From the NCBI GenBank assembly GCA_946885925.1, contig CAMPHP010000302.1, positions 1 to 5,266 of the forward strand: 5,266 bases of DNA, read 5' to 3'. Below, piece after piece: positions 1 to 5,266 of this stretch (its first letter is position 1; each line of letters starts with the position of its first letter). Origin of the DNA: an uncultured Litorilinea sp. (GTDB lineage Bacteria > Chloroflexota > Anaerolineae > Caldilineales > Caldilineaceae). Below the pieces are notes generated by a model. It did not search any database. It was not told the DNA's origin and saw only the letters and a list, made by a program, of their open reading frames with translations. Made by a program: the position numbers and the translations under genes.

Positions 1-589
1 CCAGTGTACTCAGTAGATGGAGCGGGCGATGGGCCGGAGCGGATTGGGTATCATAGCCACCAAGCAATATGACCACATCCGGGCGCTGCTCGAGCAGGCT
101 TTGACTCAACTGCTCGACGTTGGTGTCTACGGTGAGGTGGCTTTGTCCCACAACTTGCGCTGCGCTACTCAAGACGGCTAGGCGGGCTGCTTCGATGCTA
201 TAGTTGGGGGTAAGTCCAGCCAGCCAAACACGCAGGGCAGGACGAGGGCTAAGCGCCATGACAAGTTGCGCCAGGGGTGGGTATCGAGTCGGGTCATCGC
301 TCGATAGTAGTGGCATGTGATTCTGTTCATCCCACAAGCGACGCCCCAAACGGCTGCCCAACTGGCGGCAGATGCTAGCCACTTGATTGCCCAAATGACG
401 CTCGCCCTGGCGCGGGATGGTGAGCCATGCAGCCAGCCGGTAGACGCCGCGAATATTTTCCAATAGGCAAGCGCGACCATAGTGACCGTCGATACCCAAA
501 GCTAAAAGCGTGCTGCTTTCTATGGCAAGCGGTGGCTGGTTGCTTGGGTCGACAGGGAAAGGTTCACTGATGGGCATTTGTGGCATCAT
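1..589 (-). CDS. MutL-like (glutamate mutase accessory, ASKHA-fold) protein, N-terminal 196 residues, cut by window edge
   Basis: The frame is open from two tandem ATGs (589, 586) through the window edge; the start lies 2 bases after the stop of the preceding gene, which implies translational coupling. After a Pro-rich leader (about 1-25), residues 28-44 form the first beta-hairpin of an actin/Hsp70-like ATPase (LLALGIDGHYGRACLLE). Residues 45-60 (GVYRLAAWLTIP) and 119-127 (LRVWLAGLT), then 170-178 (PDVVILLGG), follow the order seen in the MutL family (PF13941). Canonical MutL proteins carry a DIGSTTT-type phosphate loop; here it reads DGHYGRA, so the Ser/Thr run is lost and ATP binding may be weakened. 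MutL in Clostridium lies between the glutamate mutase subunit genes and is thought to act as a chaperone or reactivating factor, but no mutase gene is seen here. A role with the upstream membrane proteins is inference from the operon. Family assignment is good, function unknown. The remaining ATPase motifs lie outside the window. Confidence 0.8.
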   Translation of the reverse strand, partial: MMPQMPISEPFPVDPSNQPPLAIESSTLLALGIDGHYGRACLLENIRGVYRLAAWLTIPRQGERHLGNQVASICRQLGSRLGRRLWDEQNHMPLLSSDDPTRYPPLAQLVMALSPRPALRVWLAGLTPNYSIEAARLAVLSSAAQVVGQSHLTVDTNVEQLSQSLLEQRPDVVILLGGYDTQSAPAHRPLHLLSTL

Positions 590-591
590 GG

Positions 592-1341
592 CTAGCGTCC
601 ATTCCACCATTGCCAGAAGGGAGTGGCAGAAAAGGCAGCGACTAAATAATCAATGCGGGCAATCAGTAGACTCAAGCGCGAAGCCATGAGCCGGGCAAAG
701 ATGATGCCTGCTGCAAGCCAGAGCGCACGTTGGCCCAGCCACAGCCAACCATTTAGCAACTGTCTGATGTAGGATGGCTGTTCGGCCAAATAGCGTGCAG
801 GGTCTACATAGAGATAAAGCAGGGTAGCTGTGGTGATCAGGAGCGTTAAGACCCCGGCAACAAAGATGGATATGGAAACCGTAGGGTCAAAAGCCATCTG
901 TGCTGCACGCCAGAATTGGGGCAGCAGCGTCCCCTGGAGCGCACCAAAGAGACCTGCGCTCAATCCCACAGCCAAGAGCAGTGCCACGGGCAGACGCCCT
1001 ATGCCGTGCAAAGCTCGTCGCCACAAGGGCGGAGTTGTCGTTGGTGAGGGGCGCAAGGTGCGGTCTAGCCCGGCAACGATCAAGAGCAGGCCAAGAATGA
1101 GTGGCACCCAGCGCAGTGGTTCGCCTGTCGGGTCGGCAAGCAGCGGCGCAATCAGTCGCGGGCGCAACACATGCTGGATCGCAAGCACACCCATGTAGCC
1201 GACGCTGGCTCCCACCAGCAGATGTTGTCCCATGCGCGCCAGTGTATGGTCGCCAGCGATGCCGCTGAAGATGATAAGGGTTATCAGTAAGCTACCCCAA
1301 AAGCCCAGGGTAGCGAGTAATTCATTGCTGGTATATTCCAT
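592..1341 (-). CDS. Conserved polytopic membrane protein (about six helices), function unknown
   Basis: A 249-residue integral membrane protein starting at ATG 1341, 26 bases after the zinc-ribbon gene and 2 bases before the MutL-like gene. Hydrophobic helices lie at about 10-30, 39-56, 77-93, 115-136, 156-177 and 198-221. The best marked part is 30-62, GDHTLARMGQHLLVGASVGYM followed by a hydrophobic stretch ending in RPRL. It resembles a motif I remember from uncharacterised membrane proteins of several phyla (roughly N-x-x-Y-R-F-A-E-H-L-F-V-G-V-x-A-G-Y), usually beside the type of genes found upstream here. There are no transporter signatures, catalytic motifs or cysteine clusters. The C-terminus ends in an aromatic stretch (FWQWWNGR). 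No clear Shine-Dalgarno is present. It is most simply a structural subunit of a membrane complex with its operon partners; that role is inferred. Confidence 0.85.
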   Translation of the reverse strand: MEYTSNELLATLGFWGSLLITLIIFSGIAGDHTLARMGQHLLVGASVGYMGVLAIQHVLRPRLIAPLLADPTGEPLRWVPLILGLLLIVAGLDRTLRPSPTTTPPLWRRALHGIGRLPVALLLAVGLSAGLFGALQGTLLPQFWRAAQMAFDPTVSISIFVAGVLTLLITTATLLYLYVDPARYLAEQPSYIRQLLNGWLWLGQRALWLAAGIIFARLMASRLSLLIARIDYLVAAFSATPFWQWWNGR

Positions 1342-1367
1342 GCCGTCGGTGTTGTTTATCTCTCTGA

Positions 1368-2768
1368 TTATGGCCCGGTCTCTCGGCTGAGTAGTGCTGC
1401 CAAATTGCCCAGGGCGATGGCTGCAAGCAGCGCCAGATGACCCCAGTTTTGCAGGACAATTTGGTGTAGGAGCACCGGAGTACTCTCTGGCGCGACAAAA
1501 GGATCAAGTAGTTTGCGATAGGCATAGGCCCCATCGAATCCACTGACTAAGCCGCTTAACTGGTTGCTATCCCGGTAGGGACGCAGGATTGGGTCTGCCC
1601 CGGCAGCCGTGACAGCAACCACGGGGATGCGATCCAGCGCTTGTACTTGTTCCAGCCAATTTTGCACATCTTCGGCTTGGGGGGCGGCGGTAACGACCAA
1701 TGCCGCGCTCTGCACCAGGGCCTGACGTTGTTCTGGCGAGACGACCAGAATGTTTTCCAGGAGGGCCGCAGTTGGGTCCCGCGCCAAGAGTGGTAGGGAT
1801 GCCGCGCCACCGGGCAAATAGGCAAAGGTAATCGGTTGCGCCAAGTCTGCGGCCAAAGCCAGATTGCCGGAACCTTCGTCGGAACGCACCTGGGCAATCA
1901 GCCGCTCCGCCGTAGCAATGCCGCCAGGGGTAGAGGTAATCACCGCCAGGCGGGCACGACGCTGTAAGAGATGGCGCATGACCGGCTGCATGGCAAGGTC
2001 GATCTCTCCTGCCGTAGCAGGGTCATAGGCAAAATAGACTACCACCAATGAATTCGAGGCCACACCCTGGATGGTGATATAGGCATCTTCCACGCCCGAC
2101 CAGCTATGCGGCAGTCCCACTGGCCCAGCCAAGGACAAGAGCGCAGGCAGTCCTATCGCCAGACCGAGCAACACAAAAATCCAGGGGATACGCAGGGTAC
2201 GAGGGCGGCGCAGCGCAGGGTTTACTTGATAATTGACCCGCGCAGGCGGTTCTGCCATCAACCCGCGAATCAGTCGCAATTCATCATTGCTCAACGCATC
2301 CGCGGTGGGGATAGGACGCGGGGAAGGCATTGGCGCATCATCCGTAATATTGGTGGCAATGCGGATGGGCGCTAGCAAGCCTTGAACCGCCTTTACCAGG
2401 CGACCGCTTGCGTTCAGAGTCTCATCATCCTCAAAACCGGCGTCAAGATCTTCGTCCTCTTCGGCGGCAAATTCCAGCCGCAACCAGGGTTGTCCGGCAA
2501 AGGCGTCATCGATTGGTGGCTCCGTGGATGAAGGTGCTACCGGCTCTGGTGCTGCTGGCTGCGTTGTTGTCGCTTGTGGCGTCACCGGTGTGGTGGATGG
2601 ATGCGACGAACTTTGTTCACCTGGCGAGGTGGAAGTGGGTTCCTCTTGCTCTGGGGTTTGGTCGCGCGGGGGAGGCGATGGGTCGCGCAGATCCGTACCG
2701 CAGCCGTTACAGAAATTCGCTCCGGCGCGGTTGGCAGTGCCACAGTGGGGACAACGCGTAATCGACAT
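1368..2768 (-). CDS. Zinc-ribbon bitopic membrane protein with exposed alpha/beta domain, function unknown
   Basis: A 466-residue protein from ATG 2768. Residues 1-24 form a zinc ribbon (C6-x2-C9, C20-x2-C23). Residues 25-85 are a Pro/Ser/Thr-rich disordered linker, followed by an acidic patch (103-116, EEDEDLDAGFEDDE). A basic stretch (187-193, RRPRTLR) precedes transmembrane helix 1 (about 194-214), which places the zinc ribbon in the cytoplasm by the positive-inside rule. Residues 220-440 form an alpha/beta domain with alternating strands such as SLVVVYFAYDP (240-250) and RLAVITSTPGG (273-283), and later FAYLPGG (315-321). Near its end is QLSGLVSGFDGAYAYRKLL (403-421). Helix 2 lies at about 443-460 and returns a short tail to the cytoplasm. 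The order FAYDP, LPGG, QLxGLxxGxxGA resembles an uncharacterised family I remember from several phyla, next to polytopic proteins like the two flanking this gene. Enzymatic activity cannot be read from it. No Shine-Dalgarno is seen. Confidence 0.87.
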   Translation of the reverse strand: MSITRCPHCGTANRAGANFCNGCGTDLRDPSPPPRDQTPEQEEPTSTSPGEQSSSHPSTTPVTPQATTTQPAAPEPVAPSSTEPPIDDAFAGQPWLRLEFAAEEDEDLDAGFEDDETLNASGRLVKAVQGLLAPIRIATNITDDAPMPSPRPIPTADALSNDELRLIRGLMAEPPARVNYQVNPALRRPRTLRIPWIFVLLGLAIGLPALLSLAGPVGLPHSWSGVEDAYITIQGVASNSLVVVYFAYDPATAGEIDLAMQPVMRHLLQRRARLAVITSTPGGIATAERLIAQVRSDEGSGNLALAADLAQPITFAYLPGGAASLPLLARDPTAALLENILVVSPEQRQALVQSAALVVTAAPQAEDVQNWLEQVQALDRIPVVAVTAAGADPILRPYRDSNQLSGLVSGFDGAYAYRKLLDPFVAPESTPVLLHQIVLQNWGHLALLAAIALGNLAALLSRETGP

Positions 2769-2783
2769 GGCTTAAGGTTGTGG

Positions 2784-2803
2784 AGCCTGTCCAACAGTAG
2801 GCT
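2784..2803 (-). other. Imperfect hairpin in the 72-base gap before the zinc-ribbon gene
   Basis: In the transcript sense the arms AGC and CTGT pair with ACAG and GCT around a TGG loop, with a 3-base bulge in the 5' arm, giving a stem of about 7 bp that ends 15 bases before the ATG at 2768. No U-tract follows, so it is not a standard terminator. It could shield the start region or mark an RNA-processing site inside the operon; it may also be chance. Confidence 0.3.
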
Positions 2804-2840
2804 GCGTGAATAAGTGACTCAAGGCTTTTATCGAGTTGGT

Positions 2841-3485
2841 CTATCTACTGGTCAGCAAGAAACGAATGGCAATGATCACCAGGGCGAAGCTGCTGCCCAA
2901 GAGCGCCCCACGCAATGCCGACATAGCAGGTACATCAACCACCCAATCAATTAGATTAGCGAAAGCGGTGGGTAGCAGAGTATGGGCGATGGGCATTTGT
3001 ACAGCAAAGACGAGCAGCACACCTGTCAAAAGCCATATGCCACCTGGGCGACCAATGCGTAAATAGCGATAGGCTGCCGCTGCCATGAAAAAGGCAAGCA
3101 GCGCAAAGAGTGTGGCCTGGCCCGGAGCGATGATTGCATCGAAAAGCAGTTCGACCAGCGGGCTGCGTACACCTGTGACGCTAAAGAGTCCCGTTACCAA
3201 GACGACAGCCAGCATCACCACCAGGGCCAAGCTTTGCTGCCATCCTGGATTGCCAGCCAGGACTTGGCGCACATGGACCCATGCCACGTTGATGACACCC
3301 AAGAGCAAGGCAAAGGCACTGAGCAATATGCCCCACTCGTAAATAACGATGGCAATGGGGCGCAGCAGAGGCAGGTTGGCAAAGCGGTCAATACCCAAAA
3401 GCAATAGCCCCCCGGCAATGATGAGGAGGACGAAAATGTTGGGACGCAGGGCGCGGGCGGCAGGCATGACGCTGGGCTGACTCAA
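2841..3485 (-). CDS. Conserved polytopic membrane protein (about six helices), function unknown
   Basis: A 214-residue membrane protein with hydrophobic helices at about 15-33, 44-68, 83-101, 115-138, 148-166 and 190-211. Residues 106-146 (a segment containing ATLFALLAFFMAAAAYRYLR, 124-143) and 178-198 (a tryptophan, then VPAMSALRGALLG) match a pattern I remember in an uncharacterised family, roughly A-T-x-F-x-L-L-A-F-F-x-A-S-A-A-Y-R-x-x-R followed by W-x-x-x-V-P-x-x-A-x-x-R-G. An in-frame TAG sits two codons before the first possible start, TTG at 3485, so the start must be TTG 3485 or ATG 3467 (residue 7); no Shine-Dalgarno decides between them. The stop of the upstream gene lies 8 bases before. 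The loop between helices 2 and 3 is basic (HVRQVLAGNPGWQQ). It is probably a partner of the zinc-ribbon protein and the other six-helix protein in one complex, by inference from the conserved-looking gene set. Confidence 0.85.
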   Translation of the reverse strand: MSQPSVMPAARALRPNIFVLLIIAGGLLLLGIDRFANLPLLRPIAIVIYEWGILLSAFALLLGVINVAWVHVRQVLAGNPGWQQSLALVVMLAVVLVTGLFSVTGVRSPLVELLFDAIIAPGQATLFALLAFFMAAAAYRYLRIGRPGGIWLLTGVLLVFAVQMPIAHTLLPTAFANLIDWVVDVPAMSALRGALLGSSFALVIIAIRFLLTSR

Positions 3486-3493
3486 TGGCTAGA

Positions 3494-4087
3494 CTAAATT
3501 AGGAGGGCGGAAAGAACTAGGCAGAAGGCCAGCAGCATGATACCCCAGGCAATCCAATCACTGGTTGGGTCAGATCTGGTTGCTGTGAGGGACAATGATG
3601 GTAGGGCCAACGGTGGGATCGGTTGTTCACCCACTTCGACAAAAGGCAGTGCTTCCCAAGCTGTTGCTGCACCGGGTTGCAGCCGAGGAGCAATCTGCCC
3701 GACGAGTTCGTTCGGAATGCTAGGCTTGACGGAGCCGGGTGTCGTTATTGCGCCAGCGGTCAATCCAACAATTGCCAAGTAGGTGGCTTCGTCCCCTCCT
3801 CCATAGATGAGCGTTGGGGATGGTGCACTGGGGCTATGACCCGTCGGCTGGGGAGACAAAAGCAACCCCAACCAGACTGCGCTGTTGCCTCCTGCCACCA
3901 TCAAGGGCGTTGCTACATCAGCGCGCTGGATGCTGGCATCCTGAAGCGCCAAGAGTGTGGCCGCGCCGGTTGTCAGGCTCGAGGGCGTGCCACCTAGCAA
4001 GACAGCCGTTGCACCTGTCTCCAGTTTGCTCTCAATTTCTTCTTGCCAAGCCGCAGTGATGTCAGCGGCAGACCTGTTCCAGTACAT
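3494..4087 (-). CDS. Tail-anchored protein with GG-motif soluble domain, function unknown
   Basis: A 197-residue protein starting at ATG 4087. An in-frame TGA five codons upstream fixes this start, 8 bases after the previous stop. There is no signal peptide. The N-terminal domain has a strand-turn-helix ATAVLLGGTPSSLTTGAA (26-43), then PLMVAGGNSAVWLGLLL (61-77), and a later glycine-rich strand LIYGGGDEATYLAIVGLT (93-110). Residues 140-172 look like a linker. A single hydrophobic helix (about 178-196) ends the protein, so most of it should face the cytoplasm as a tail-anchored protein. The pair LLGG and VAGGN is spaced much like the 'AGGTD ... FAGN' pair in the middle of MutL-family proteins, and the last gene of this operon is MutL-like. 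A distant relationship is possible but not shown. It carries no recognised catalytic motif. Coding is supported by tight spacing and good membrane-segment grammar. Confidence 0.75.
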   Translation of the reverse strand: MYWNRSAADITAAWQEEIESKLETGATAVLLGGTPSSLTTGAATLLALQDASIQRADVATPLMVAGGNSAVWLGLLLSPQPTGHSPSAPSPTLIYGGGDEATYLAIVGLTAGAITTPGSVKPSIPNELVGQIAPRLQPGAATAWEALPFVEVGEQPIPPLALPSLSLTATRSDPTSDWIAWGIMLLAFCLVLSALLI

Positions 4088-4095
4088 GATCGTGT

Positions 4096-4440
4096 TTATT
4101 CAACCTGGGCGAACGAAGAGCCTGCCGGTGTTGTCAAGTCAGGTGTTGTTGAGTCTGGGGGCGTTAGGAGGGTGGTTAATCGCCGGGTCGCATCGGGGGC
4201 ACTGAGCAACGCCGCCCACCTTGTGACACTTTCCCAACCCAACAGCAAGCCCAATGGCGCAATGGCATAGAGCAGCTGTCCCGCCACAAAAGCCAGCGGG
4301 TTATGACTTGCCAACAACAAAAGCAGGGGAGTGGTCAATTGGCGGCGCTGAACTGTAGCAGCAAGCAATTCCAAATCGGTTGGCATCAATATGCTATTGC
4401 TCTGTTGATTGCTACTCTGTTGATTACCTTGTTGCATCAT
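4096..4440 (-). CDS. Small protein with one hydrophobic segment, first gene of the operon, function unknown
   Basis: A 114-residue protein. I take ATG 4440 as the start (a second ATG follows at 4437). A longer frame opens with TTG at 4461, but that TTG sits almost at the predicted transcript start, and an AGGGGA element lies 10 bases before ATG 4440. Residues 6-15 are a double NQQS(S/N) repeat that looks dispensable. The likely conserved core starts near the internal ATG at residue 19 (MPTDLELLAATV). Residues 34-68 hold a long hydrophobic stretch (including PLLLLLASHNPLAFVAGQLL), enough for one membrane-spanning or membrane-lying helix, then RWAALLSAPDATRRL (74-88) and a Thr/Pro/Ser-rich tail. 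It is the promoter-proximal gene, 8 bases from the next. I recognise no family; it may be an adaptor or assembly factor for the membrane proteins downstream, which is only inference. Confidence 0.7.
   Translation of the reverse strand: MMQQGNQQSSNQQSNSILMPTDLELLAATVQRRQLTTPLLLLLASHNPLAFVAGQLLYAIAPLGLLLGWESVTRWAALLSAPDATRRLTTLLTPPDSTTPDLTTPAGSSFAQVE
4396..4425. repeat. Two tandem 15-bp units at the 5' end of the small first gene
   Basis: Units 4396-4410 and 4411-4425 share 12 of 15 bases (core CTCTGTTGATT / CTCTGTTGATT aside from the first bases). On the minus strand they encode NQQSS-NQQSN at residues 6-15 of the small protein. Such in-frame units can expand or contract by slippage, and they lie before what is probably the conserved part of the protein. 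Confidence 0.6.
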
Positions 4441-4497: not shown

Positions 4498-4678
4498 AGA
4501 TGAGAGGAACCAAGAGCGGCAAAGTTTCGTATTACTTGCGTATGCCTACGGGCAGGGTCAACACGCTCATCCTTATTGCCATTCATTTTGTTGATTCTTC
4601 TCCATCCTTTCCACTCTTTCTCCATAGAGCGGATTTACAACAGCGTTGAGCAACTGGTATGTGACAGGCTAGGCATTG

Positions 4679-4687
4679 TGGTATACT
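4679..4687 (+). promoter_or_regulatory. Predicted extended -10 promoter of the DUF3048 lipoprotein gene
   Basis: TGGTATACT contains an extended -10 (TG, one base, then TATACT, five of six to TATAAT). No good -35 box is found 16-18 bases upstream, as is common for extended -10 promoters. The predicted transcript start is near 4694, which gives a leader of about 74 bases. The box lies inside a short inverted repeat, GGTA-TAC-TACC (4680-4690). Confidence 0.5.
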
Positions 4688-4767
4688 ACCCGCGATTTGC
4701 TCTATTGCCTGGTGGCGCATCTTATGCCAACAAGGTTGCTCATAATCAGCGAAGGCGTTATCAACTT

Positions 4768-5266
4768 ATGTATCGTCGTATGGTTCGTCCTGTTTCTGCG
4801 AAGTTTGTGTTATTTGCGATTCTCTTAGTTGCGTTGACCGCGTGTAGCAGTACACCTATGGCGGCCACAGCTACACCGACCAAGACCCCTGTTGCCGCAG
4901 CCGAAGTAGCCGAAGTAGCTGTTGTACCCACGGAAACACCCGTTCCAGCCACACCAACCGAAGCGGCGGTGGAACTCGTACCCACTGAGACACCTACACC
5001 GTTGCCAGGTAATATTGCCCCTTACTCTGGGTTACCTGCGGATAATCCCGAAAATTTGAAGCGGCGACCAGTTTTTGTCTGCATCAACAACGACGATGTT
5101 GGACGCAGCGCCCATTATGGGTTGGGGCTAGCCGATTTGGTCTACGAATACATCGTTGATGGTTTTACGGTGACCCGTATCACGGCAATCTACCAGGGCA
5201 ATACGGCTTCACGAATCGGGCCAGTACGTTCGGCGCGTATGCCCAATGTGTGGATGACTTATATGT
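4768..5266 (+). CDS. DUF3048 (YerB-type) lipoprotein, N-terminal 166 residues, cut by window edge
   Basis: The frame runs from ATG 4768 to the window end. Residues 1-12 are basic (MYRRMVRPVSAK), 13-22 hydrophobic, and LTAC (23-26) is a lipobox, so Cys26 should be lipidated and the protein exported and tethered to the membrane. ATG 4780 (residue 5) would also give a working signal peptide. Residues 28-80 are a Thr/Pro/Ala/Glu-rich spacer with a repeated VPTETP (53-58 and 71-76). From residue 87 the DUF3048 N-terminal domain begins: SGLP, then RRPVFVCINN (99-108), YGLGLADLVYEYIVDG (117-132), TRITAIYQ (136-143) and RIGPVRSAR (149-157). The RPV..-NN..., GL..AD-VYE...-G..TR and -GPVRSAR- elements are the family hallmarks. 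The prototype is Bacillus YerB, whose molecular function is unsettled. A weak GAAGG lies 12 bases before the ATG. It is transcribed away from the membrane operon. The rest of the domain is outside the window. Confidence 0.9.
   Translation, partial: MYRRMVRPVSAKFVLFAILLVALTACSSTPMAATATPTKTPVAAAEVAEVAVVPTETPVPATPTEAAVELVPTETPTPLPGNIAPYSGLPADNPENLKRRPVFVCINNDDVGRSAHYGLGLADLVYEYIVDGFTVTRITAIYQGNTASRIGPVRSARMPNVWMTYM
4900..4917 (+). repeat. Two perfect 9-bp tandem units in the lipoprotein spacer
   Basis: GCCGAAGTA occurs twice in direct succession and encodes AEV-AEV in the spacer between the lipidated cysteine and the DUF3048 domain. A second, dispersed repeat in the same spacer is an 18-base unit encoding VPTETP at 4924-4941 and 4978-4995. 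Both are typical of length-variable tether regions. Confidence 0.65.

Follow-up and report, generated by a model that had tools for sequence, protein, structure and literature searches.

Does the run of genes at this locus encode one membrane-bound machine, and what part would a homologue of MutL play in it? In the window, by which we mean the entire analysed stretch of 5,266 nucleotides, the open reading frame list gives six minus-strand genes, running from position 4440 down to the edge at position 1. Downwards from 4440, the gene for a small protein is followed by genes for proteins of 197, 208/214, 466 and 249 aa and by a MutL homologue that is cut by the edge. In that order, the intergenic gaps measure 8, 8, 72, 26 and 2 bases. 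The second widens to 26 bases with the ATG start of the 208/214-aa gene, and an upstream ATG would turn the final one, between the 249-aa gene and MutL, into a 19-base overlap. The features are as follows.

4096..4440 (4461), minus strand: small protein of about 114 aa, or 121 aa if the upstream TTG is the start; hydrophobic segment at 48-69; first gene of the operon
3494..4087, minus strand: 197-aa protein with an alpha/beta domain at its N-terminus and a membrane anchor at its C-terminus; probable diverged DUF6754 homologue, from operon position and profile-profile comparison
2841..3467 (3485), minus strand: six-helix membrane protein of 208 aa (214 aa from TTG 3485), from hydropathy; without a Pfam family
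1368..2768, minus strand: 466-aa zinc-ribbon protein, from PF13240 and hydropathy; between both six-helix genes
592..1341, minus strand: six-helix membrane protein of 249 aa, from hydropathy; no Pfam family above cut-off
2..589 (alternative start ATG 610), minus strand: MutL/GlmL-family (ASKHA-fold) homologue, truncated by the window edge; PF13941

The first-pass annotation had read this layout as a six-gene operon in one direction, encoding two six-helix proteins and a zinc-ribbon protein that crosses the membrane. The positions of the open reading frames confirm the operon, and the layout is not a matter of chance since relatives keep the same gene order. Hydropathy and the match to PF13240 likewise bear out the three membrane proteins. 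Across the operon proteins of the window, a Pfam scan named only the zinc ribbon and MutL.

Membrane proteins of the operon

Six hydrophobic segments were present in each of the 208/214-aa and 249-aa proteins according to hydropathy; the MutL fragment had none. All of the 40 closest relatives listed for the 214-aa protein (P0001-P0040) measure 208 aa, which favours the ATG at 3467 as the start of this gene. Neither protein had a Pfam family over cut-off, and Pfam scans of 41, 47, 30 and 31 relatives of the two returned scattered weak matches only. Paralogy of the two six-helix families was also considered and was not seen (hhalign E 0.19).

The 466-aa protein contains a zinc ribbon (PF13240, E 4e-7; 30 bits against a cut-off of 25), a disordered linker and two hydrophobic segments, at 191-219 and 442-461, from which we infer that it crosses the membrane twice. 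A Rossmann-like alpha/beta domain (residues ~224-421) lies between these segments and would be situated outside the cell. In a search of solved structures, the profile of this family retrieved the zinc ribbon and otherwise just generic matches (E 3e-4). The place of its gene between the two six-helix genes is conserved in relatives. Homology of the 466-type protein with DUF6754, discussed below, was not seen beyond the C-terminal membrane segment (hhalign E 0.055).

Such a composition might suggest that the two six-helix proteins are a transporter or flippase, with the remaining proteins as regulators and the Rossmann-like domain as an external sensor. We consider this unlikely. No transporter family was found over cut-off for either six-helix family in the Pfam scans, and a profile search of solved structures gave neither family a match with E < 0.2. 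Furthermore, the alpha/beta fold is a common one that shows no function, and Foldseek returned no match under E 0.001 for the models of the 466-aa or 197-aa proteins.

The 197-aa protein ends in a hydrophobic segment (175-197) and is tail-anchored; the pLDDT of its structure model is 76. It matched no Pfam family at E 1, and so did not pass the cut-off of DUF6754 (PF20539). DUF6754 nevertheless holds the operon position where the window has the 197-aa gene, with matches at this position of E 1e-25 (L085) and 2e-33 (L081), although the protein of the window, unlike DUF6754, lacks an N-terminal transmembrane helix. In a profile-profile comparison (hhalign), 25 relatives of the 197-aa protein aligned with 19 DUF6754 proteins over 101 columns at E 2e-4 and a probability of only 45%. 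Iterated profiles of the two cross-matched marginally (E 6e-3 in L032 and 4e-3 in L088), and no solved structure was found below E 0.6 for their alignment. These comparisons make it likely that the 197-aa gene is a diverged DUF6754 homologue, whose first, N-terminal membrane helix has probably been lost. Additionally, DUF6754 of other Chloroflexota is preceded by a gene of ~80 aa, and the profiles of this gene and of the small protein each matched members of the other family.

Co-inheritance and gene order across Chloroflexota

A single draw of 151 Chloroflexota genomes was searched with each family. DUF6754 was found over cut-off in 37 genomes and MutL in 64, while the deepened profiles of the 249-aa and 214-aa families matched 41 and 39. 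Two short weak matches, in G080 and G120 (one from each family), were dropped, leaving 40 and 38. Both families occurred together in 38 genomes (Fisher p 1e-33, a value that ignores kinship); the 249-aa family stood alone in two, G007 and G029, and the 214-aa family in none. The claim that these genes stay together therefore holds within Chloroflexota, where the homologues are not scattered singly. DUF6754 accompanied the pair in 36 of the 38 genomes, the exceptions being G001, which belongs to the group of the window, and G141.

Physical linkage was similarly close. In 33 of 38 genomes the 214-aa and 249-aa genes shared a contig, without exception in the same orientation, and in five they were located on separate contigs. 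In all 38 genomes with both, the 249-aa gene shared its contig and strand with MutL at a distance of 35-1670 bases. The genes for the 214-aa protein and DUF6754 were at most 179 bases apart in 34 of the 36 genomes with both, and on separate contigs in the other two. MutL is more widespread than its neighbours: among the 62 MutL genomes in the co-occurrence list (of the 64 over cut-off), 24 were without the 249-aa family, and several other MutL-bearing loci contained no membrane genes. Thus, MutL does not need the membrane genes.

Gene order was scanned by local profiles in 75 loci, comprising the window, L001-L034, L069-L088 and L151-L170. We term the group of the window Caldilineaceae-type after its nearest relatives (metagenomic proteins and a Caldilineaceae MAG); in the genome-contig scan, 26 of its 34 loci were titled Caldilineaceae, two Litorilinea and six Chloroflexi, Chloroflexota, Anaerolineae or bacterium. 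The full order of small protein, 197-aa protein or DUF6754, 214-aa, 466-aa, 249-aa and MutL, on one strand, was present in the window and in 26 of the 34 Caldilineaceae-type loci. Of the two further sets of 20 loci each, L069-L088 had it in 17 and L151-L170 in 3; most loci of the latter set had been selected because they contain MutL but not its neighbours. Among the incomplete Caldilineaceae-type loci, the sequence ends near or inside the operon in four (L009, L017, L028 and L029), the first two genes were not found within the available DNA in L021 and L033, and they lie ~8 kb away on the opposite strand in L007 and L015.

The fuller set of relatives comprises the small protein, DUF6754, a six-helix protein, the 466-type protein, a second six-helix protein, MutL and often an RnfC_N-like protein, a name that serves as a label only (19.5 bits in Pfam against a cut-off of 25.6). 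The gene for this last protein follows MutL in 11 of the 17 complete loci of the second set and in all three of the third. By genome, it was found in none of five of the Caldilineaceae type and in six of seven others, being missed in G020.

The gene set is thus inherited as a block in part of Chloroflexota. Matches in the genome-contig scan bore Chloroflexota-type titles only, and PF20539 was found in 0 of 14 control genomes. The first-pass annotation ascribed to the three larger membrane proteins a co-occurrence in distant phyla as well, and DUF6754-like neighbourhoods may occur outside Chloroflexota. No relatives were found in viral contigs (two query families and two deeper alignments) or on plasmids (466-, DUF6754- and 214-type queries). 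Further neighbour clusters common to at least four loci were restricted to subgroups and had no common metabolic theme. None of the papers searched named DUF6754, PF20539 or PF13941, and no relevant description of such an operon was found among them.

It could be argued that these neighbours are simply transcribed together and contribute to no shared product, given that some genomes have MutL but no membrane genes. The near-perfect co-occurrence and fixed order in a phylum-wide sample, together with the correlated losses described below, render this very improbable. We hold it probable that the gene products form a physical complex.

The MutL homologue and the peptide arrays of its neighbour

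The proposal of a MutL-like protein with an ATPase fold was sustained in part. The fragment matches PF13941 over its residues 114-188 (31.9 bits, cut-off 27) and is a homologous ASKHA-fold protein of the MutL/GlmL family (PF13941; NF040745). The phosphate-1 motif of ASKHA proteins is D/E-x-G-x3-T-K/R. In the alignment, the MutL proteins of relatives carry this motif, whereas the window and its group show an altered sequence. The motif was found by a scan in none of 33 Caldilineaceae-type copies (the window and 32 others) and in 20 of 22 other copies from loci with membrane genes; the two exceptions are L072, which is cut at a contig end, and L170. As the motif is absent, the homologue in the window is ATPase-like by descent only, and an ATP-using member is not supported here. 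Caldilineaceae-type copies are also without much of the second half, where relatives carry a second D-x-G motif. Counted from the start of the alignment, their open frames span 397-439 aa if not cut, compared with at least 564 aa in the uncut others.

The family name might imply a chaperone of the GlmL type, which would reactivate a coenzyme B12-dependent mutase, with the membrane proteins localising or feeding the enzyme. Unlike GlmL, however, the fragment scored 20 bits against the cut-off of 475 for the equivalog NF040745, a comparison made with an incomplete protein, and a relative in L085 scored 79.7. Glutamate mutase E (PF06368), which represents the only B12 enzyme tested, was over cut-off in none of the 22 genomes with an operon-type MutL. 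The control genome G094 was positive, with GlmL-like MutL genes adjoining; G115 gave a weak sub-threshold match, and G065 gave none despite a GlmL-like gene. B12 neighbours were likewise missing from the clusters common to at least four loci. With 0 of 22 genomes and a positive control, the GlmL reading is unlikely, and we assign it a distinctly low probability. The annotation "MutL protein" in these genomes thus does not imply glutamate mutase.

Outside the group of the window, PxW[LMIV] motifs in the cytosolic part often bring the 466-type protein to a length of 800-1500 aa. Of the 20 complete loci there, 16 had between 5 and 63 copies, with shuffled expectations below 2 (1.8 for the protein with 63). 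The weighted consensus of the arrays is E/D, L/V, P, D/A/S, W, L, R/Q/K. At least three motifs were present in 23 of the 1234 open reading frames called in the 75 loci, and none of these was an unrelated frame: 17 match the 466 profile, the frame in L078 follows the 214-aa gene where the contig ends, and those of L151-L154 and L160 encode five zinc-ribbon proteins immediately next to MutL. In the array-bearing L073-L078, no zinc ribbon was found. Caldilineaceae-type 466 proteins contain at most two motifs, and the protein of the window none.

The consensus [DE][LV]PxWL[RQK] resembles the end of FtsZ, which was D[IV]PxFLR in 20 of 20 genomes; all 20 also encode FtsA and none SepF. The arrays might consequently imitate the FtsZ tail and bind FtsA, making the complex an accessory of cell division. 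Against this reading, which we rate as improbable, the arrays have W as the aromatic residue where the FtsZ tail has F, and the shared neighbour clusters, as we interpret them, included no division gene. FtsA and the FtsZ tail are moreover kept in three array-less Caldilineaceae-type genomes (G001, G003 and G004). Since FtsA is present in the array-less group, array loss follows the decay of MutL rather than loss of FtsA.

That MutL itself is the receptor of the PxWL motifs is, by analogy, possible, though we rate it as less likely than not. The coupling is not strict, being weakened by the complete loci L069, L079, L082 and L163, in which MutL has the phosphate-1 motif and an RnfC-like gene is present, yet there is no array. 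In L081, the tail of MutL carries two PxW[LMIV] motifs of its own, so another protein could be the receptor.

A proposed assembly and its relation to known systems

We propose that the products of the six genes assemble into a single membrane-bound unit, descended in reduced form from a MutL-DUF6754 system in which MutL docks on peptides, and judge the chances of this being correct as about even. In the membrane, DUF6754 would form the core together with both six-helix proteins. The 466-type protein would pass the membrane twice, exposing its Rossmann-like domain outside and extending a disordered tail into the cytosol; in most relatives this tail would bear the zinc ribbon and, usually, repeated [DE][LVI]PxW[LM][RQK] peptides. 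Cytosolic, actin-fold MutL would dock on these peptides, in the manner of FtsA with the FtsZ tail or PilM with the N-terminus of PilN, and its ATP cycle, together with the RnfC_N-like partner, would switch or assemble the complex. The Caldilineaceae-type form has lost the phosphate-1 motif, much of the second half of MutL, the RnfC-like gene and the arrays; these losses may all stem from a single event, which weakens the case. Given these losses, what is left of the complex should function independently of ATP hydrolysis by MutL. We would guess that it is a regulated envelope or surface machine.

A bolder version, which we advance only tentatively, is that of an unrecognised Chloroflexota machine in which up to 63 FtsZ-tail-like peptides collect MutL, which in turn drives the DUF6754/six-helix core, the Caldilineaceae, with the window among them, having become ATP-independent by joint loss of the motor signature, the partner gene and the docking array. 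If the proposal is true, two membrane families without a Pfam entry, together with DUF6754, could be placed in one system and given partners. A natural comparison would furthermore be available between relatives that have the full set and a family devoid of the motor signature, partner gene and arrays.

Among known systems, the division proteins share with these loci the similarity of FtsZ D[IV]PxFLR to array [DE][LV]PxWL within the same genomes; these genomes, however, have their own FtsA (20 of 20), and the 466-aa protein of the window is without PxW[LMIV]. The window is not a member of the PilMNOP alignment complex of type IV pili; no PilN, PilO or PilP family appeared in Pfam scans of its proteins. 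Nonetheless, PMC5805733 describes there an actin-fold cytosolic protein recruited by the short peptide of a membrane protein, and the docking of short peptides by actin-fold proteins is reported in both PMC5508204 and PMC5805733. Were our proposal correct, the operon would join FtsA-FtsZ and PilM-PilN as a third case of an actin-fold protein that recognises a short peptide, with the peptide repeated here in arrays of tens.

Zinc-ribbon protein and operon composition

At five of the loci compared with the window (L151-L154 and L160), the MutL gene was found to be adjoined by a gene for a zinc-ribbon protein carrying PxW motifs, in the absence of the membrane genes. The RnfC-like gene, which often follows MutL in relatives, was present at four of these five loci and was not found in L153. 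In the Chloroflexota genomes G066, G091, G115 and G123, an RnfC-like gene was present apart from the operon.

The C-termini of the window 466-aa protein and DUF6754 resemble each other in their juxtamembrane stretches, with QNW and QDW, respectively, preceding the last helix, albeit with an hhalign E-value of only 0.055.

In two Caldilineaceae-type loci, L007 and L015, four of the operon genes remain clustered, while the first two are encoded on the other strand, approximately 8 kb upstream:

~1.5-2.4 kb, minus strand: g197/g121 (L007 and L015)

Genes flanking the operon

The gene divergent from the window operon, of which only the start is present, matched the DUF3048 family and is transcribed away from the operon. 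Neighbour clustering placed relatives in 9 loci, the window included.

Window 4576-5265, plus strand: DUF3048 lipoprotein-like gene, start only (PF11258, 68.8 bits)

Elsewhere, sequence reading suggested identities for the divergent neighbours of the L085 operon and for a P-loop-like ORF in L024, whose cluster of relatives spans 18 of the 75 loci:

L085 6293-7758, minus strand: putative MeaB-type GTPase and putative B12-binding mutase subunit
L024 14356-15765: P-loop-like ORF

Division proteins

SepF (PF04472) was matched in none of the 20 Chloroflexota genomes searched, while FtsZ and FtsA were both present in all 20. A second FtsZ-type match was observed in G129, G073, G121, G109, G091 and G123.
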